A stretch of 64,000 bases of DNA from Hyphomonas jannaschiana VP2. GTDB lineage: Bacteria > Pseudomonadota > Alphaproteobacteria > Caulobacterales > Hyphomonadaceae. Positions 3,426 through 10,601 of this stretch are shown here, in pieces (within the stretch, counting starts at the first letter, position 1; every line of letters begins with the position of its first letter). The translations under genes were made by a program, and so were the position numbers. Location of the stretch: contig NZ_ARYJ01000006.1 in the NCBI RefSeq assembly GCF_000685215.1, forward strand, positions 124,001 to 188,000, written 5' to 3'. The notes under the pieces were generated by a model. The model ran no database searches. It was given only the letters and a program-made list of their open reading frames with translations, and had not been told where the DNA came from.

Positions 3426-3502
3426 GGTTCGGTAGCTCAGCTGGTTAGAGCGCGCGACTCATAATCGCGAGGTCGGGAGTTCAAGTCTCCCCCGAACCAC
3501 CA
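3426..3502 (+). tRNA. tRNA with CAT anticodon (elongator Met, or Ile2)
   Basis: A complete 77-base cloverleaf including encoded CCA can be folded by eye. Acceptor stem GGTTCGG pairs with CCGAACC (3492-3498); D stem GCTC/GAGC; anticodon stem CGCGA/TCGCG with loop CTCATAA, giving anticodon CAT at 3460-3462; T stem GGGAG/CTCCC. CAT anticodons serve elongator Met, initiator Met, or lysidine-modified Ile2. The paired first base argues against initiator. Met and Ile2 cannot be separated with confidence by eye. Its 3' half is the integration site of the downstream island. Confidence 0.95.
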
Positions 3503-3504
3503 TT
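3458..3504 (+). repeat. attL-like direct repeat (3' end of the tRNA)
   Basis: These 47 bases, from the anticodon loop to two bases beyond CCA, are repeated without mismatch at 10172-10218. This is the normal signature of tyrosine-recombinase integration into a tRNA 3' end, where the intact gene is restored on one side and a 3' fragment is left on the other. Confidence 0.92.
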
Positions 3505-3860
3505 GACCCTCCTGAGAACATTGATTTTTCAGACTTTCTGTCAAAAAAAACACACAACTCACCCTCAAAACGAAAAGTTTGCTCTTGGGTGTGCAATAGC
3601 ATCTGCATATTCAAATCTGATCGAATTTAGTGATTTCGGCGGAAAGATTGATCAAGCTAAATTGGATCAGGGTATTTCAGATCTTGCTCTAACAAGTTCA
3701 GATACCGTGGAAGCAATCGCCCGAAAAACCTGCTCTGCCCCCCCCAAAAAATGGTCCGTTATTTGAGTTAGTTCCGGCTTCGACTATGGAGCTGAGGAAT
3801 GGGCAAGAGAGCCAAACCTGAAGATACTCGGCTTTTTTCAGCGGTTTCATCCGAAACGGT
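3505..3860. other. Remnant short unit of the island, no convincing gene
   Basis: This stretch of about 355 bp lies between the tRNA and the degenerate att copy. A plus-strand frame from a TTG at 3503 to 3766 stays open for 87 codons but matches nothing I recognise and may be the tail of a destroyed gene. Its first 40 bases resemble 3893-3935 and its last 40 resemble 10131-10171. It therefore has the same two ends as the long unit with almost everything between them missing. Confidence 0.5.
3507..3546 (+). repeat. Left-end repeat of the island units, copy 1
   Basis: The sequence CCTCCTGAG, then a short divergent stretch, then TTTTC.G.CTTTCTGTCAAA follows the tRNA CCA directly. A related copy follows the degenerate att site at 3893-3935. 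The shared order is expected if two related elements integrated at the same tRNA end. Confidence 0.6.
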
Positions 3861-3895
3861 CTCATATTGCGAGATCGGCAGCCCCCTACTCCCAC
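3861..3895 (+). repeat. Degenerate third att copy
   Basis: CTCATATTGCGAGATCGGCA and the following CCCCCTACTCCCACC align with the tRNA 3' half (CTCATAATCGCGAGGTCGGG ... CTCCCCCGAACCACC) with several substitutions and a deletion in the T arm. The 40 bases before it (3821-3860) match the bases before the right att copy (10131-10171). This marks it as an old junction between tandem elements. Confidence 0.65.
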
Positions 3896-3935
3896 CTCCT
3901 GAGGTAACTGAATTTTCGGGCTTTCTGTCAAACAG
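3893..3935 (+). repeat. Left-end repeat of the island units, copy 2
   Basis: This diverged copy of 3507-3546 keeps CCTCCTGAG and CTTTCTGTCAAA and lies directly after the degenerate att copy. The remaining bases up to the methyltransferase start at 4100 hold no gene that I can support; a frame at 3799-4059 crosses the att remnant and looks fortuitous. Confidence 0.6.
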
Positions 3936-4099
3936 GACACATTGGGTGGCGCGTAGACCTTCATCATGCTGGCGTCGGTCATCTTGTGGACTGACTGGGC
4001 ATCAACTTTCAAGCTACGTTATTCTACTCGAAGTCTGCCTACGAGTATTCTATTGGTAGAATGAACCACCTGCGCCCCCATCCAAGGCGGAAAACCGAA

Positions 4100-4915
4100 A
4101 TGAGTACGATGATGAATATACGCAACCTCTACACAACGTGGCGGATGTACCAGCGAAATCTATCCGGCCGAAAGTTCGAGCCGGAAGCGCCATATATGCG
4201 ATACCTTTGCAAGTCAGGCGACACGTGCTTGCATTTTGGCGCCAGTGATGGTCGGCACTCGTATCTCATGTCGCAGATCGTTGGCCCTGAAGGAACCATC
4301 CACGCTTTCGAGCCCTCACGGTATTCATACGAAATAATGTGCCGCCTTATTAAGTGGCACAAACTCTCCAATGTCTTTCCCCACAACTACGCCATTGGCG
4401 AAAAGGATGGCGAGACAACCCTGAATGTTCCGCTGAAGAAAAGCGGGCATCTGGGGCGTGCTTACGCTGTGATCGGGGACGATGCCCGGGGATCCGAGGA
4501 AATTCTTGCAACATCAAACAACACTCAGTTTGAGCGGCAGAAGACTCCCGTAATCTCGCTGGATTCCATCGTCTCGAAGATGAAACTTGATACTGTTGAT
4601 TTCATCCGCTGCGATATTGAGGGCGCTGAGTGCCTGATGATCGAGGGTGGAAAGAAGACGATCGAACAGCACCTTCCTGCCTTCCTTATTGAAATCCATC
4701 CCTTCTCTCTACGGAACAATTTTAATCGGGATCCGGAAACAGTGCTGAATTACTTTCTGGATAACGGTTACGAAGCATGGCGCCTGAGTGATGACGACTC
4801 CGAACTTATCCGCACAAATGAGTTGGATCAACAAAGACGCTGGCGCGATTATTTCCTAGTGCACCCTTCGCAGGCAGATGACATACCAACCGGACCGTTT
4901 TCGAACGATCAATAG
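4100..4915 (+). CDS. FkbM-family SAM-dependent methyltransferase
   Basis: The protein has 271 residues with a class I methyltransferase fold. CLHFGASDGRHSYLMS is the SAM-binding glycine-rich loop (canonical D/G-x-G-x replaced by GASDG). HAFEPSRYSYEIM is the acidic strand end. VDFIRCDIEGAECLMIEGG is the FkbM signature D-x-E-G-x-E. FkbM proteins O-methylate sugars or natural products; the substrate here is unknown. The ATG at 4100 was preferred over 4061 because AAGGCGG lies about 11 bases upstream. It converges with the RTX gene and shares a terminator palindrome with it. Confidence 0.85.
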   Translation: MSTMMNIRNLYTTWRMYQRNLSGRKFEPEAPYMRYLCKSGDTCLHFGASDGRHSYLMSQIVGPEGTIHAFEPSRYSYEIMCRLIKWHKLSNVFPHNYAIGEKDGETTLNVPLKKSGHLGRAYAVIGDDARGSEEILATSNNTQFERQKTPVISLDSIVSKMKLDTVDFIRCDIEGAECLMIEGGKKTIEQHLPAFLIEIHPFSLRNNFNRDPETVLNYFLDNGYEAWRLSDDDSELIRTNELDQQRRWRDYFLVHPSQADDIPTGPFSNDQ

Positions 4916-4933
4916 GGGGGGACAATCTATAAA

Positions 4934-4961
4934 TTGCTGGGGAGAATTTTCTCCCCAGCAA
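4934..4961. terminator. Bidirectional terminator palindrome
   Basis: A 28-base perfect inverted repeat (TTGCTGGGGAGAA, then TT, then TTCTCCCCAGCAA) lies between the convergent stops at 4915 and 4986. Its GC-rich stem and central A/T bases suit a terminator serving both the methyltransferase and the RTX gene. Confidence 0.7.
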
Positions 4962-4985
4962 ATGCCGATCTGACCTTAGAAACGA

Positions 4986-5843
4986 TCATCCGTGACCATA
5001 GTCTGTTCCGTCTCCGTTTGGACCGCCACCATGGGTGTTATACGGATCATCGGCGCTTCCCGCGACGTAGAGAGTGACACCAAAGCTCAAGGCGTTTGCA
5101 CCCGGACCATACACAGATATCTCACCTTGACCGCCACCAAGCGTAATCACTGCATAGCCATCATTTGGAATACTGTCTGTAATCGTGTAGGACATCCGGC
5201 TGTCAATGTATATTGTGTCATTCGCATAGAAATCATAGACGACATCCCCTAGGAGCGAATCACCCATTTCAAAATAGATGTGGTCTGCAGAGCTATCGTT
5301 ACCACCTGTATAGATCGCGTCTGTACCAGCTCCGCCTATCAGCCGGTCGTTTCCGTTACCGCCGCGAAGGATATCGGCCCCATCTCCTCCAAAAAGCCAG
5401 TCATTGTTGTTATCGCCGATGAGTTCATCGTTACCGGCTTCTCCGTACAGCCAGTCATCAGCTGAACCACCTCGGAGATAATCATCTCCCGTGCCGCCAT
5501 ACGCGACGTCACTCCCGTTGCCCCCTTGCAAGCTATCGGCTCCAGCCCCGCCACTGAGATAGTCGTTCCCGTCATCGCCGATCAGGGAATCGTTTCCATC
5601 TTCGCCATAAATCCAGTCATTTCCGCCGCCGCCGCGCAGGTATGGATCGTTGCCGTTTCCGCCGTAAAGCGTGTCCTGGCCATCACCGCCTTGCAGCGTG
5701 TCATCTCCATCTTCCCCATACAGGATATCGTTACCGCCATACCCGCGCAGCGTGTCGTTACCAGCACGCCCATACATGATGTCTACAGCGCCATTTCCGT
5801 TATGGGTGTCGTTCCCGCTTGTTCCATAATAGTAGTTTGGCAT
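4986..5843 (-). CDS. RTX beta-roll protein, likely type I secretion substrate
   Basis: The product of 285 residues consists of about nineteen consecutive nonapeptides of the GGxGxDxLx kind from near residue 6 to 185 (GRAGNDTLR, GYGGNDILY, GGNGNDRLI and so on). A non-repetitive tail of about 100 residues follows (NDTIYIDSRMSY ... GEISVYGPG ... ending GTDYGHG). RTX repeats bind calcium and fold outside the cell, and substrates carry an uncleaved C-terminal secretion signal. There is no N-terminal signal peptide and no enzymatic or adhesin domain. Two ATGs are adjacent; the one at 5843 lies 5 bases from a GGAGG site, the one at 5846 only 2. Confidence 0.88.
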   Translation of the reverse strand: MPNYYYGTSGNDTHNGNGAVDIMYGRAGNDTLRGYGGNDILYGEDGDDTLQGGDGQDTLYGGNGNDPYLRGGGGNDWIYGEDGNDSLIGDDGNDYLSGGAGADSLQGGNGSDVAYGGTGDDYLRGGSADDWLYGEAGNDELIGDNNNDWLFGGDGADILRGGNGNDRLIGGAGTDAIYTGGNDSSADHIYFEMGDSLLGDVVYDFYANDTIYIDSRMSYTITDSIPNDGYAVITLGGGQGEISVYGPGANALSFGVTLYVAGSADDPYNTHGGGPNGDGTDYGHG

Positions 5844-5846
5844 CAT

Positions 5847-6013
5847 TGCCTCCGATTGATTTGCCCCTTCGGGATTGAAGGAGCACTCGGAGGGTAGTGA
5901 AAAAAACTCGCCTTAAAAGTGAAACCTTAGAGAGAAATAAAAAATTATTTTTTAAACTTAAGAAATTTATCTATATCCGAATTTTATTTCACTAAGAGAA
6001 TGAAACAAGGATC
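5847..6013. promoter_or_regulatory. AT-rich leader region upstream of the RTX gene
   Basis: This 167-bp gap between the methyltransferase stop and the RTX start is strongly AT-rich, with runs such as AAAAAATTATTTTTTAAA near 5940. It contains no ORF and ends at the RTX ribosome site (plus-strand cctcc, 5849-5853). It probably holds the RTX promoter and may attract H-NS-like silencers (inference). Confidence 0.4.
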
Positions 6014-6760
6014 TCAGACAGCAAGGAAAAGCGTATTTTTTTCAAGCTCACTGGCCTTCAGAATTTCTCCTGTTTCGAGACTGTGTGGAATATAACCAAG
6101 CTCTGCAAGGAAATCGGACAGCTCCTGAGAGCTGGATCCAAACCGGTGCTCACGTCCATCAATCTCACAAAGAATGGCAGGCTTCTGGGACGTAATGAGG
6201 TCTAAAGCCCCCTTCAATACGTTCAGCTCCCCTCCTTCGACATCAACCTTGATGAGGCTGACCGGCCCGAAATCCATGCGGGCCATCACATCGTCTAGGC
6301 GAACAATTGATACGAGCTCTTTCTTGACTTCGAAACGATCGCGCAGGTCAGTATCATCACCAACATGCGCCAGGCCAATTCCCACACCACCTTTCTTCTT
6401 AATCGGTATGCTGAGCTCAATAAGACCCGCCTCTTCACCAAGCGCGAAAGGCATAATCAATATATTTTTAGCTGAACGAAAAAAACCGGCGAGACCAAAA
6501 ACTGAGCGCGGCAAAGATTGCGGCTCGAATGACAATACAACGCAGTCAGGAGCCAACTGCGCGAGGCGTCTGGAGAAGATCCCGACGTGGGCCCCCACGT
6601 CGATAATCACCGAGTTGCTCTTGAGGTAAGGGCGCACAACCTCCAGCTCGACTCTCCCGTCATTCATGGTCGCTTTCTGGTTCAAAAACAGACTCTTGAA
6701 GAAATTCTCCTGCGCCGTCTGGCGACGACCCAGAAAAAAAGCATTTGCGCGCGTGATCAT
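6014..6760 (-). CDS. FkbM-family SAM-dependent methyltransferase (second copy)
   Basis: The protein has 248 residues. VIIDVGAHVGIFSRRLA is a good SAM-binding motif I, LSFEPQS is the acidic loop, and SLIKVDVEGGELNVLKGA is the FkbM signature. NAFFLGRRQTAQENFF forms an N-terminal extension. It shares family but little detailed identity with the product at 4100, so the two are probably not a recent duplication. It lies 83 bp downstream of the HlyD-like gene and upstream of the RTX gene on the same strand, so it may be co-expressed with the exporter. The target is unknown. Confidence 0.85.
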   Translation of the reverse strand: MITRANAFFLGRRQTAQENFFKSLFLNQKATMNDGRVELEVVRPYLKSNSVIIDVGAHVGIFSRRLAQLAPDCVVLSFEPQSLPRSVFGLAGFFRSAKNILIMPFALGEEAGLIELSIPIKKKGGVGIGLAHVGDDTDLRDRFEVKKELVSIVRLDDVMARMDFGPVSLIKVDVEGGELNVLKGALDLITSQKPAILCEIDGREHRFGSSSQELSDFLAELGYIPHSLETGEILKASELEKNTLFLAV

Positions 6761-6843
6761 TGAGGAAGCGACCTATATTGGATCCTGAGACTGAAGCGCA
6801 ATACCGTGTTCCGGGCCTGCATTCCACGAAGATTTGCCGTTGT

Positions 6844-8190
6844 TCAGTTGCTCACAAAAGCCTTCGAATAGGACTCAGCAATTGGCTCAATGAGGTATTC
6901 CGCAAGAGTCCTTGATTTCGTCACAAGCGTTACCTCTACGGGCATACCCGGGCGCACCAGCTCGAGAGCATGGCTCACGTGCTCGTCTTCAAAAGGCACT
7001 TCGACACGCGCAAGATAGTAGGGCTTTCCTGCATTCGGGTCGACGATCACGTCGTCACTAAGAGACGTGAGCCGTCCAGTAATCCGTGGCATTTCCCGGC
7101 GACTGAGGCCCGGGAAGCTCAGAACCGCCGTATTACCGGCACGAAGGTTTTCTACATCCTTTGGGGCGACATGAGCCTCAATGACCACTTTAGGGTCAGG
7201 AGGGACAATCTCCATCAGCTGCCCGCCGGAAGGTATGATGCTGCCGGGAGCATCATAAGCAACATTGATCACCTGTCCGGCAATCGGTGATTTGATTTCT
7301 GAACGCTCAAACGCGTCTTCCAGATAAGAGAGCTCTTCAACCGCTTGGGTAATCCTGGATTTTGTATCCGTCAGCTCACTTGCAATCCTTTGATTTTTTT
7401 CCGCCATCTTCGCAGCCCGGTTCGAGGAAATCTCCTGAAGCGCTGCTTCAAGCCGAGTGATTTCACTCTCAGTGAACTTGCGTTGCCCTTTTGATGCTGC
7501 GAACTGACGCTCATATTGTCGATAGGCGGGAAGACGGGTCAGTCCCTTTTCCAACAGCGTTCTTTGAGCCTCCATGTCATCTTGGAGAGATGTGATTTGC
7601 TCATCAAGACTTTGGAGTTGTGCCAAAAGACCAGCAAGTTGAGATCTTGTCTGGGCTTCCTGCGCTGAAAGCGTATCCATCTGGGTTTCGAACAGACCGT
7701 TATTCTTCTGCAGCAGGTCCTTTGCTTCGCGGATGGTATCCTGGGCTCTTCCGCGCAGGTCCTCATCAATATGGTCTGCTGAAATGGCAATATTCTGCTC
7801 GCCGTCGCGCTCTGCAATCAAACGCGCCTCGGTCACCTGTAGTGAAAACAAATTCAGAGTTGCTGCATTCCTCTTGGCCGTCAGCGCCTTGGATTTGACA
7901 ACTGCGAGAACTTGTCCCTGCTCTACAAAATCACCCTCGCGCACGGAGATCTTGTCGAGCAGCCCACCTTCCTGATGCTGGATCGGGATACGCTCCCCAT
8001 CGATCACCACTTGTCCGGAGGCGATTGCCCCACCCGCTAGGGGGGCAAAAATCGTCCACAGCAAGAAACCCGCAAGCATCACAACCAGAACAATCATTGT
8101 ACGTCCAAACAAGATACGCTTGAGACGGAACTGCAAGTCCCCTTCAGCATCTGCCGGGCTGTCTGAGAGACTAAGAGGCACGCTGCGCAT
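6844..8190 (-). CDS. Type I secretion membrane fusion protein (HlyD/PrtE family)
   Basis: This 448-residue periplasmic adaptor links an inner-membrane ABC exporter to an outer-membrane TolC-like channel. It has a short cytoplasmic N-terminus, one membrane helix near residues 33-53 (MIVLVVMLAGFLLWTIFAPL), a lipoyl half-motif (GERIPIQHQEGGLLDKISVREGD), a long coiled-coil hairpin (about residues 110-285) and the C-terminal beta-barrel of the HlyD family (RSEIKSPIAGQVINVAYDAPG). Its start overlaps the ABC gene by 20 bp, indicating translational coupling. Confidence 0.93.
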   Translation of the reverse strand: MRSVPLSLSDSPADAEGDLQFRLKRILFGRTMIVLVVMLAGFLLWTIFAPLAGGAIASGQVVIDGERIPIQHQEGGLLDKISVREGDFVEQGQVLAVVKSKALTAKRNAATLNLFSLQVTEARLIAERDGEQNIAISADHIDEDLRGRAQDTIREAKDLLQKNNGLFETQMDTLSAQEAQTRSQLAGLLAQLQSLDEQITSLQDDMEAQRTLLEKGLTRLPAYRQYERQFAASKGQRKFTESEITRLEAALQEISSNRAAKMAEKNQRIASELTDTKSRITQAVEELSYLEDAFERSEIKSPIAGQVINVAYDAPGSIIPSGGQLMEIVPPDPKVVIEAHVAPKDVENLRAGNTAVLSFPGLSRREMPRITGRLTSLSDDVIVDPNAGKPYYLARVEVPFEDEHVSHALELVRPGMPVEVTLVTKSRTLAEYLIEPIAESYSKAFVSN

Positions 8191-9904
8191 TAAGCTCCTC
8201 CCCTTTGGCGAGCTTTGAAAGAGACATGGATTCGTTTCTTTTCAGCTCGAAGCGCCCTTCTGGCTGAAGGACAAGCGCCACATCGCAAGCCTGGGCAAGT
8301 TGGCGGTCGTGCGTTACGAGAACGACTGTCTTTTTCATCAGTACGCAGCGCTTGAGAAAGGCGCCGAAATGCTGCTTGGAAACGTGATCGAGATGGGCCG
8401 TTGGCTCATCCAGAACCAGCACAGTCGGATTCAGAACGAGTGCACGAGCTAAGCCAACCAGTTGGGTCTGCCCGCCTGAAAGCTGTGTTCCGTTAGCCCC
8501 GATCATAGTCGAGTAGTTCTTCGGTAGTTGCGCGATCATCCCGTGAGCGCCACTCAGTTGCGCAGCCGCTACAATTTGCTCGTCTGTGACTGTTTCATCA
8601 AAACTCGCGATATTCTGTGCGATTGTACCGCGGAGCAGCTTCACGGATTGCGGCAGATAGCCGAGCATCCTCTGTACCTGCTGATTGCTCCAGTTTTGCA
8701 AGTCGACGCCATCAATCGTCACCTTGCCGGCTACCGGTTGCATCAAGCCGGTCAACAAACGACAAAGCGTCGACTTACCTGTTCCGCTTTCCCCCACAAC
8801 GGCAACAAGCTGACCTGGCTGAATATCCATGCTGATACCCGCAAAGAGCGGCTGTGGCGAATTAGGGAGCCGACACGTAAGGCGCTCCAATCGAACGCGG
8901 CCTCTCGGCGAAGGTAACTCGAAATCCGGGCGGACATCTGATCGAAACGTCTCCAGACGCCCCAAAATGGACAAAGCTTGCCGAGCGGATTGAATTTGAT
9001 TCCAAGCGCCAATTGACTGTTCAATCGGGGCCAGAGCGCGCCCGGAAATAATGCTGCACGCGATCATTGCCCCAGCGCTGATTTCACTTTGAATAACAAG
9101 GATCGCACCGACGCTCAGAATTGAAACCTGAATGAGCAAGCGAATGAATTTGGAAGAACTACTGGCTACCGTTTGAACTTGGTGCGTTTTCAACTGTTCC
9201 GAAAGTTGCTTGTAAACGATCTGACCAAACGTTTCGCCGATAGCCCCCAGACGGCCCGTTGCCGCGAAGAAGTCAGCCGATCCGACAGCCTGTTCAGCGA
9301 ATTCGAACGAGCGAATCTCATCCGAATGAGATTGTCCTGCCGCGCGGCGCGTCAGTGCATCCGACAAGATGGCAATTGAAAAAAGAGCTATCCCGCCAAT
9401 CAAGACAACGATGCCCAACTGAAAACTCGCCCCGAAAATGGCAAAGAGAAACAGAGGCACCACTGGCGCATCCAGAATCGTGCTGACTGCGAAACCAGAT
9501 GCCACATTTCGAATGGTATCTATTTCTCGTAACCCCACAATCGTTGCCTGAGATGACCTGGCAGCTTGCGCTGCGCTCATCTCGAGAACTCGCGGTGCAA
9601 ATTTCTGGTACATAGCGGCAGCCAAATGAGACAGGGCACGCGCTCGCAAATAGTCAAATACGGCCATGCAGCCGAGGCAGAATATGGCAATCGCTGCAAG
9701 GAAAGCCAATGTTCCGAGATTGCCGGATCCCAGAACCCTGTCATAGACCTGAAGCATGAAAATCGGAGATGCGAGAAACAAAATTCCCATCACCGTGGAG
9801 ACAGCAAACAGAGGGAACGCATACCGGACAAAATAGTTCAGCACCTCTCGGCTAAAAGTCGCCTCGAGTCCAATCCGCTGCATGATCTTTTGATTATTGA
9901 GCAT
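8171..9904 (-). CDS. Type I secretion ABC transporter, permease and ATPase (PrtD/HlyB class)
   Basis: This 577-residue half-transporter has about six N-terminal membrane helices (residues 25-310) followed by a nucleotide-binding domain. Walker A GESGTGKST, signature LSGGQ, Walker B VLVLDEP and the switch histidine in VLVTHD are all present. There is no N-terminal C39 peptidase domain, so cleavage of a double-glycine leader is not expected; this fits the PrtD/AprD subgroup that exports RTX proteins. It is the first gene of the minus-strand cassette. No outer-membrane factor is encoded in the island. Confidence 0.95.
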   Translation of the reverse strand: MLNNQKIMQRIGLEATFSREVLNYFVRYAFPLFAVSTVMGILFLASPIFMLQVYDRVLGSGNLGTLAFLAAIAIFCLGCMAVFDYLRARALSHLAAAMYQKFAPRVLEMSAAQAARSSQATIVGLREIDTIRNVASGFAVSTILDAPVVPLFLFAIFGASFQLGIVVLIGGIALFSIAILSDALTRRAAGQSHSDEIRSFEFAEQAVGSADFFAATGRLGAIGETFGQIVYKQLSEQLKTHQVQTVASSSSKFIRLLIQVSILSVGAILVIQSEISAGAMIACSIISGRALAPIEQSIGAWNQIQSARQALSILGRLETFRSDVRPDFELPSPRGRVRLERLTCRLPNSPQPLFAGISMDIQPGQLVAVVGESGTGKSTLCRLLTGLMQPVAGKVTIDGVDLQNWSNQQVQRMLGYLPQSVKLLRGTIAQNIASFDETVTDEQIVAAAQLSGAHGMIAQLPKNYSTMIGANGTQLSGGQTQLVGLARALVLNPTVLVLDEPTAHLDHVSKQHFGAFLKRCVLMKKTVVLVTHDRQLAQACDVALVLQPEGRFELKRNESMSLSKLAKGEELNAQRAS

Positions 9905-10171
9905 GTCTCTCGCTTGCCCTCACTACACCCAAAATGTCAATTTAAAGGAGCGGACCTTGTCCCCTAATTATAGAAATTTAATGCTTGCACCCAACCTCGC
10001 TATATGCCGTGGCTGAAGCCCTTATATGGTTATTTGTGGAATTCCAGCTGGCATGCAAATGACACGCAAACTGGAGTTTTGAGCCCAATTTTGGGTCCAG
10101 CTAGTCCTCTAGGAATCGCTCTTAACACTGAAGATATTCAGTTTTTTCTCAGTCGCTTCACCTGAAACGGT
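9905..10171. promoter_or_regulatory. AT-rich intergenic region with clustered inverted repeats
   Basis: No gene is seen between the ABC start and the right att copy. The stretch holds several short palindromes: TGGAATTCCA (10037-10046), CCAGCTGG (10044-10051) and a nested hairpin CTGGA ... CCCAA-TT-TTGGG-TCCAG (10071-10100). The final 40 bases match the bases before the degenerate att copy. It presumably contains the cassette promoter and possibly recombinase arm sites. Confidence 0.4.
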
Positions 10172-10218
10172 CTCATAATCGCGAGGTCGGGAGTTCAAGT
10201 CTCCCCCGAACCACCATT
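10172..10218 (+). repeat. attR-like direct repeat (tRNA 3' fragment)
   Basis: This is the exact 47-base repeat of 3458-3504. It contains the anticodon arm 3' half, variable loop, T arm and acceptor 3' strand with CCA but lacks the 5' half of the tRNA. It is therefore an integration scar and not a gene. Confidence 0.92.
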
Positions 10219-10229
10219 TTCCCGCTAAA

Positions 10230-10601
10230 CTATTCCTGGCTTGCCCCCACCTTGCCCATTGACCAGAGCACGGCGATCCAGCCAGCTTTGACGCGTGGCA
10301 GGGCCAGCATGACCAGTCCTGTGACGGCAAGGGCCGCGCCCGGCAGACTGATCCAGAGCGGCAGGCTCGACATGGACACGAAGAACGTCACGGCCACCAG
10401 AAAAGGCGCCAGCATCAACACGGTCAGCCATGCCGGACCATCCTCGGATGGCACCTGGCCCAGAGGCGCGCCGCAGCACGCACAGGTATCCACAGGTTTC
10501 AGGTAGGCCCGGTAAAGGGCGCCCTGCCCGCATGACGGACATTTCAGGGCGAGCCCGCGAACAAGCGCGGTCCGGGATGAGGGGCGAGCAATCTCAGGCA
10601 T
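10230..10601 (-). CDS. DUF983 family membrane protein
   Basis: The protein has 123 residues. The N-terminal zinc-ribbon-like CPSCGQGALYRAYLKP and CACCGAPLG motifs are followed by two membrane helices (LTVLMLAPFLVAVTFFV and WISLPGAALAVTGLVML). This is the standard DUF983 layout of alphaproteobacteria, often found near cytochrome oxidase genes. The molecular role is not established. It is the first chromosomal gene after the island. Confidence 0.85.
   Translation of the reverse strand: MPEIARPSSRTALVRGLALKCPSCGQGALYRAYLKPVDTCACCGAPLGQVPSEDGPAWLTVLMLAPFLVAVTFFVSMSSLPLWISLPGAALAVTGLVMLALPRVKAGWIAVLWSMGKVGASQE

Follow-up and report, generated by a model that had tools for sequence, protein, structure and literature searches.

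The window analysed here is a stretch of 64,000 nucleotides, corresponding to positions 124001-188000 of contig 6 in a genome of 3.64 Mb and 30 contigs (G000). The only tRNA gene found in it by ARAGORN is a tRNA-Met(CAT), and the question raised by this locus is whether the 6.7 kb of DNA at the 3' end of this gene is a mobile element, of which kind, and whether it can still move. A sequence-only reading had described the block as an island bounded by a perfect 47-bp repeat and had regarded it either as a relic or as a satellite for which an outside element provides the recombinase. The coordinates of all features are collected in Table 1.

Table 1. Features of the island at the tRNA-Met(CAT) gene and of its borders, with positions in the window and the evidence for each.
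Feature	Position	Strand	Evidence
tRNA-Met(CAT), target gene	3426..3502	+	ARAGORN
attL core, 47 bp, 3' part of the tRNA gene	3458..3504	+	exact repeat
Mini-unit, 0.36 kb, putative remnant of a further element with ends of the same kind	3505..3866		repeats; absent from G040
Mini-unit left end, resembles final integrase codons	3508..3554	-	79% to 3895-3941; translation by eye; tblastn E 0.026 only
Insertion-sequence end and first transposase codons (OrfA, from 3799)	3731..3824	+	up to 95% to multi-copy family sequences; alignment of 9 copies
Mini-unit right end	3818..3866		85% and 82% to cargo-unit right end
Putative decayed middle att site	about 3861..3896	+	alignment to core; score equalled by 1 of 2000 shuffles
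Putative integrase stub, C-terminal segment including the tyrosine, at cargo-unit left end	3895..4018	-	tblastn, profile searches
FkbM-family methyltransferase	4061..4915	+	PF05050, TIGR01444
RTX-repeat protein, 286 aa	4986..5846	-	PF00353
Second FkbM-family methyltransferase	6014..6760	-	PF05050, TIGR01444
HlyD-type adaptor, type I secretion system	6844..8190	-	TIGR01843 above cut-off
ABC exporter, PrtD-like	8171..9904	-	TIGR01842, 478 bits against a cut-off of 510; PF00005
Cargo-unit right end	10128..10171		repeats; same place in G040
attR core, 47 bp	10172..10218	+	exact repeat; unchanged in G040
DUF983 gene, right flank, outside the island	10230..10601	-	PF06170; adjoins the tRNA in G041 and G024

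The boundaries proposed from the sequence could be confirmed. The two copies of the 47-bp core are identical over their whole length with a spacing of 6714 bp, and the core starts two bases 5' of the anticodon and ends two bases beyond the CCA. A search of the 3.64-Mb genome gave six matches to the core, and a third full copy was not found, the remaining four matches being 74-83% identical. The DNA between the repeats is indeed AT-richer, with a GC content of 0.49-0.55 in 1-kb windows lying wholly inside the block as opposed to 0.58-0.69 in those wholly outside. In addition, the predicted empty site, in which the tRNA is joined directly to the DUF983 gene, is present in the relatives G041 and G024, where about 16 bp and 24 bp, respectively, separate the tRNA 3' end from the DUF983 match. 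The junction in G041 reads the same as the right junction of the island in G000. The exact repeat, the base composition and the empty sites in relatives thus support that the 6.7-kb block is an island integrated at the 3' end of the tRNA gene.

Each of the 42 genomes of the genus has a match to the tRNA query as well as to the DUF983 protein, and the arrangement of the site varies among them. G019 and G020 are without the island and have a gap of about 102 bp of different sequence between the tRNA and DUF983. Other genes fill the interval in G001 and G039 (12 kb), G011 (6.6 kb) and G013 (6.1 kb). Those of G001, G039 and G011 (L051, L052, L054) resemble cobalamin genes when judged by eye, and these three intervals are without a second copy of the core, as only a single copy was found in the stretches read. 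In several genomes, e.g. G012, G017, G027, G008 and G002, the DUF983 gene is found 5' of the tRNA.

The island contains a type I secretion set consisting of the ABC exporter, the HlyD adaptor and an RTX-type substrate; no outer-membrane partner is encoded within it. The frames of the adaptor and the exporter overlap by 20 bp in an operon-like manner. Seven NCBIfam models matched the RTX protein, all of them far under their cut-offs, Pfam assigns it to the repeat family only, and a toxin domain was not seen with either collection. Most likely, the cargo serves to export the small RTX protein, either to the cell surface or into the medium; the FkbM enzymes perhaps methylate a surface glycan, which is a guess. 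The RTX protein (4986-5846) and its counterpart in a related species that also carries the cargo, G040 (L040:3761-4585), are 65% identical. The first approximately 100 and the last approximately 20 residues are nearly identical, and the middle is poorly alignable with a dS of about 2, as if this stretch had been replaced or diversified.

According to the sequence-only reading, neither an integrase nor a transposase could be read in the island. This holds insofar as there is no intact integrase among the eight island ORFs scanned, but what appears to be an integrase stub can be read, as can the beginning of a transposase gene. The stub resembles the C-terminus of an integrase in G030, in which the same tRNA is directly followed by the gene of a 404-aa tyrosine integrase (PF00589), the integrase frame extends into the tRNA gene, and an exact core is found 28.7 kb away from the tRNA. 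This 28.7-kb island (contig 59, about 24841-53730; L043/L044) carries, besides the intact integrase, a DUF3363 protein and, as judged by eye, two RND efflux gene sets and a two-component system. Intact relatives of this integrase also adjoin tRNA-Met(CAT) in G063 and G060, which belong to another genus, and the integrase neighbours in G063 are a ribbon-helix-helix protein, a T4SS coupling protein and a DUF3363/relaxase protein.

The left end of the cargo unit reads VHKMTDASMMKVYAPPNVSCLTES on the reverse strand, and the counterpart in the G030 integrase is GHKTPDVSTTEIYAPFDPSYLFKS. When the composition correction was switched off and the subject was limited to 185 bp, tblastn with the G030 integrase gave an E-value of 7e-5 for the stub, 0.002 for G040 and 0.026 for the left end at position 3508, and all three left ends terminate by eye in residues like those of the integrase tail. 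A profile of 20 members of the integrase family, from which the tRNA-derived tail had been removed, ranked the stub first among 1753 six-frame fragments (10.5 bits, E 0.018; runner-up 2.7 bits). It counts against the stub that one of ten shuffled windows scored 9.8 bits, near the 10.5 bits of the stub, and that the G040 stub was not found when frames were split at stops. With stops written as X and 166-bp windows, the stub scored 13.2 bits and the same place in G040 4.8 bits, and none of 300 controls reached either value (maximum 4.2); in longer stretches with stops as X the scores were 9.4 bits in G000 and 4.1 in G040. The likeness to the integrase was noticed first and the statistical tests were made afterwards, which is a further point against it. 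The stub peptide alone matched no Pfam family. On balance, we accept the stub as genuine; it is supported, though not beyond doubt, that the left end encodes a C-terminal stub of about 30 codons of a tyrosine integrase, on the expected strand and in the expected place.

A plain tblastn search at E 1e-3 of the 1.5 kb beside the tRNA revealed no integrase in G000 or G040, which also counts against the stub. Over the 40 genomes of the genus read in this way (G025 and G036 left out), the full-length integrase was detected in G030, and only its C-terminal part in G005, G038 and G026 (L124, L125, L126). Each of these fragments contains a stop, and repeated loss of the integrase has taken place at the tRNA-Met site.

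Two further repeats are present within the block, 3508-3554 with 3895-3941 (79%) and 3833-3866 with 10144-10177 (82%), which we interpret as the left and the right termini of a single element type. On this reading the block is not a single unit but comprises, from left to right, the mini-unit (3505-3866), the decayed att site in the middle and the cargo unit of 6.3 kb (3895-10171). The putative mini-unit contains a sequence at about 3731-3824 that occurs in many genomes of the family, often in several copies each and with an identity of up to 95%; the mini-unit query matched 46 of 105 family genomes at E 0.01, a count that includes G000 as well as G040, the latter via the left end. The alignment of nine copies revealed the end of an insertion sequence with the start of its transposase gene, and the full-length ORF of this insertion sequence in G011 matches HTH_Tnp_1. 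We presume that it is of the IS3 type. The piece ends at CTGAAGA, which is also the first letters of the element right end, and because the insertion sequence stops where the right end begins, this point is likely a deletion junction.

Among the 42 genomes of the genus, the exporter was found only in G000 and G040 at E 1e-100, and the same was true among the 105 family genomes at E 1e-130. In 398 genomes of the order, the ABC protein was found at E 1e-115 in G000, in G040 and as a relative with 40% identity in G065. Beyond G000 and G040, no relative found shares more than 40% identity with the island exporter. The ABC gene of G065 is adjoined by a HlyD gene (35%), but the 19.9 kb read there gave no FkbM or RTX match at E 1e-3.

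In G040, the cargo unit is located at the same tRNA and the mini-unit is missing. Between the two genomes, identity is 84% and 90% in the two large aligned parts of the unit and 90% and 89% in the flanks. The dS values are 0.16 for HlyD and 0.29 for ABC, with 0.29 for TrxB, 0.30 for DUF983 and 0.51 for the histidine kinase in the flanks, and dN/dS is 0.15 for HlyD and 0.12 for ABC. From these values the exporter looks to be under purifying selection and roughly as old at this site as its flanks. The two FkbM genes of G040 look broken, since the longest frames at their places comprise 117 and 156 aa. The island was presumably inherited vertically. However, in a tree of three flanking genes from 10 genomes (G013 was left out owing to too few columns), G040 groups with G019/G020 with a support of 84 and not with G000, and as G019 and G020 are without the island, it was either lost there or moved between lineages.

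In our view, the island is probably a decayed, accreted integrative element, CIME-like, at the 3' end of tRNA-Met(CAT) that has kept its type I exporter. An element with a tyrosine integrase beside attL would have entered the tRNA gene and thereby placed the 47-bp core on both sides. A later deletion would have removed the integrase except for its last codons, leaving the cargo unit with two FkbM methyltransferases, the RTX protein, the HlyD adaptor and the ABC exporter. Between the tRNA and the cargo unit, another element, sharing these ends, would have shrunk to 0.36 kb with the insertion-sequence end at the deletion point, and the att site between the two elements would have decayed. The order of these events and the deletion mechanism are inferred. 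Of the two possibilities named at the outset, the relic is favoured over a satellite dependent on an outside recombinase, because of the integrase stub, the fragments at the same tRNA in G005, G026 and G038 and the intact gene in G030. However, the grouping of G040 with the island-free G019/G020 means that this explanation needs an added loss or lateral movement.

A further finding fits a dead relic poorly and counts against the decayed element. The attR core is unchanged between G000 and G040 (10172-10218 vs L040:8909-8955; 0 of 46 bases differ, plus one gap at the edge), as opposed to 53 differences in the 248 aligned bases to its left, with 20 gap columns set aside; at the rate seen in those 248 bases, the chance of such an unchanged core is about 1e-5. 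Conversion from the tRNA gene, a role of the copy itself or excision by a helper could each keep it so. Should the island still be mobile without its own integrase, excised and re-inserted by the recombinase of another element, the essential tRNA gene would be restored in part from attR at every excision, and this would preserve the core. The decayed middle att site of G000 also agrees with such mobility, as does the presence in G000 of a 378-aa open frame (L132:10119-11246) that is 55% identical to the G030 integrase. Nevertheless, we regard this explanation as unlikely. A third full core was not found in the genome. G000 has three PF00589 proteins, all encoded on other contigs than the island. 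The 378-aa relative is one of them and was set aside as a helper, as the tRNA-Thr near it is 7.6 kb away and the 3' end of this tRNA is not repeated within the 19.9 kb read. Moreover, conservation extends to the right of attR, where 1 of 12 bases differs; identity amounts to 95% in the 200-bp bin from 10226 and to 80% in the following one. Gene conversion from the tRNA would have the same effect as repeated excision. Just beyond the tRNA-Thr, a 30-bp piece (L132 2526-2555, in the region 2412-2555) is 77% like a piece (10143-10172) from the 3' part of the gene of the integrase relative and is perhaps another integrase stub.

Exchange by homologous recombination between species at the shared tRNA locus, without integration of an element in this lineage, would account for the patchy presence of the cargo in G000 and G040 but not in G019/G020, as well as for the dS of HlyD, which is below that of the flanking genes. 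This is decidedly unlikely, as the dS of ABC equals those of TrxB and DUF983 and the repeats still require an original integration. A satellite that is integrase-less by design, for example of a phage, and always used a foreign recombinase would agree with the small size, the tRNA border and the lack of an intact integrase gene. The integrase stub speaks against it, however, and Pfam revealed no phage gene family, including packaging or regulatory genes of the kind expected in a phage satellite, in the eight island ORFs, nor did the island DNA match any of 50,697 phage records, making this the least probable of the explanations and a very improbable one.

The structure of the decayed element fits the definition of a CIME, which in the passages of PMC5704250 on this term is an element that has lost its integration and transfer genes and kept attL and attR; the accretion scenario is described there too. 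Here, both att sites are retained as exact repeats with an empty site in relatives, the eight ORFs scanned include no integrase, of which only the putative stub remains, and neither a relaxase nor a T4SS family was detected in these ORFs by Pfam. By analogy with its relatives, the island may once have had transfer genes. It shares the loss of integrase and transfer genes, the kept att sites and the tandem accretion with the CIMEs of ICESt1 relatives in Streptococcus as outlined in that source (PMC5704250), but differs in host group and target gene and in its decayed middle att site, at which the tandem can hardly split. With the ICE/IME that carry integrases of the G030/G063 type it has in common the same tRNA and the strand and place of the integrase beside attL, the stub being related to their C-terminus. 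The element of G063 has a relaxase and a coupling protein, which the island lacks, and the island does not combine an intact integrase with its own relaxase as an autonomous ICE/IME does. The stub and the deletion linked to the insertion sequence are consistent with an origin from an ICE/IME by deletion; an intact sister was not found among the 105 family and 398 order genomes. A similar case is provided by the Dehalococcoides islands at ssrA, some of which, in the sections of PMC3146451 devoted to them, are bounded by repeats without an integrase and lie beside sister islands with one, the integrase gene overlapping attL. These islands likewise lack the integration module but use a serine recombinase and ssrA (PMC3146451). 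The cargo resembles type I secretion systems with small RTX substrates, in which the ABC, HlyD and RTX genes stand side by side, and differs from them by the two FkbM methyltransferases in the same island.

Searches for a donor gave only distant relatives. A contig scan with the ABC alignment and two uninformative patterns found merely distant ABC proteins (15 loci, 25-34%) and no donor, and neither HlyD nor the right end with the core (26 bases) was found in viral contigs. Island DNA matched 23 plasmid records, each over at most 3% of the query, and the named features listed were mostly calcium-binding or similar proteins. The ABC protein matched 426 plasmid records at E 1e-60, all below 60% identity and with 35-39% in the best 20 of the 426, and the G030-type integrase was not found in plasmids at E 1e-30. 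A published account of the island was not found among the literature matches listed, for which the organism terms of the search were tentative. As far as seen, the kind of element is known and this case is new.

The island illustrates how an element can decay at a tRNA gene into fixed cargo, with an integrase reduced to a stub, a tandem partner deleted at an insertion sequence, a middle att site lost and the exporter genes retained. It also serves as a warning that islands called integrase-less may hold a readable stub. Furthermore, the unchanged attR core raises a testable question on hidden mobility. If the island were still mobile, any attR mutation would damage the essential tRNA gene at each excision, so that selection would preserve a core otherwise expected to drift. 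Looking for conserved cores amid drifting flanks would in that case provide a general test of the hidden mobility of integrase-less islands.
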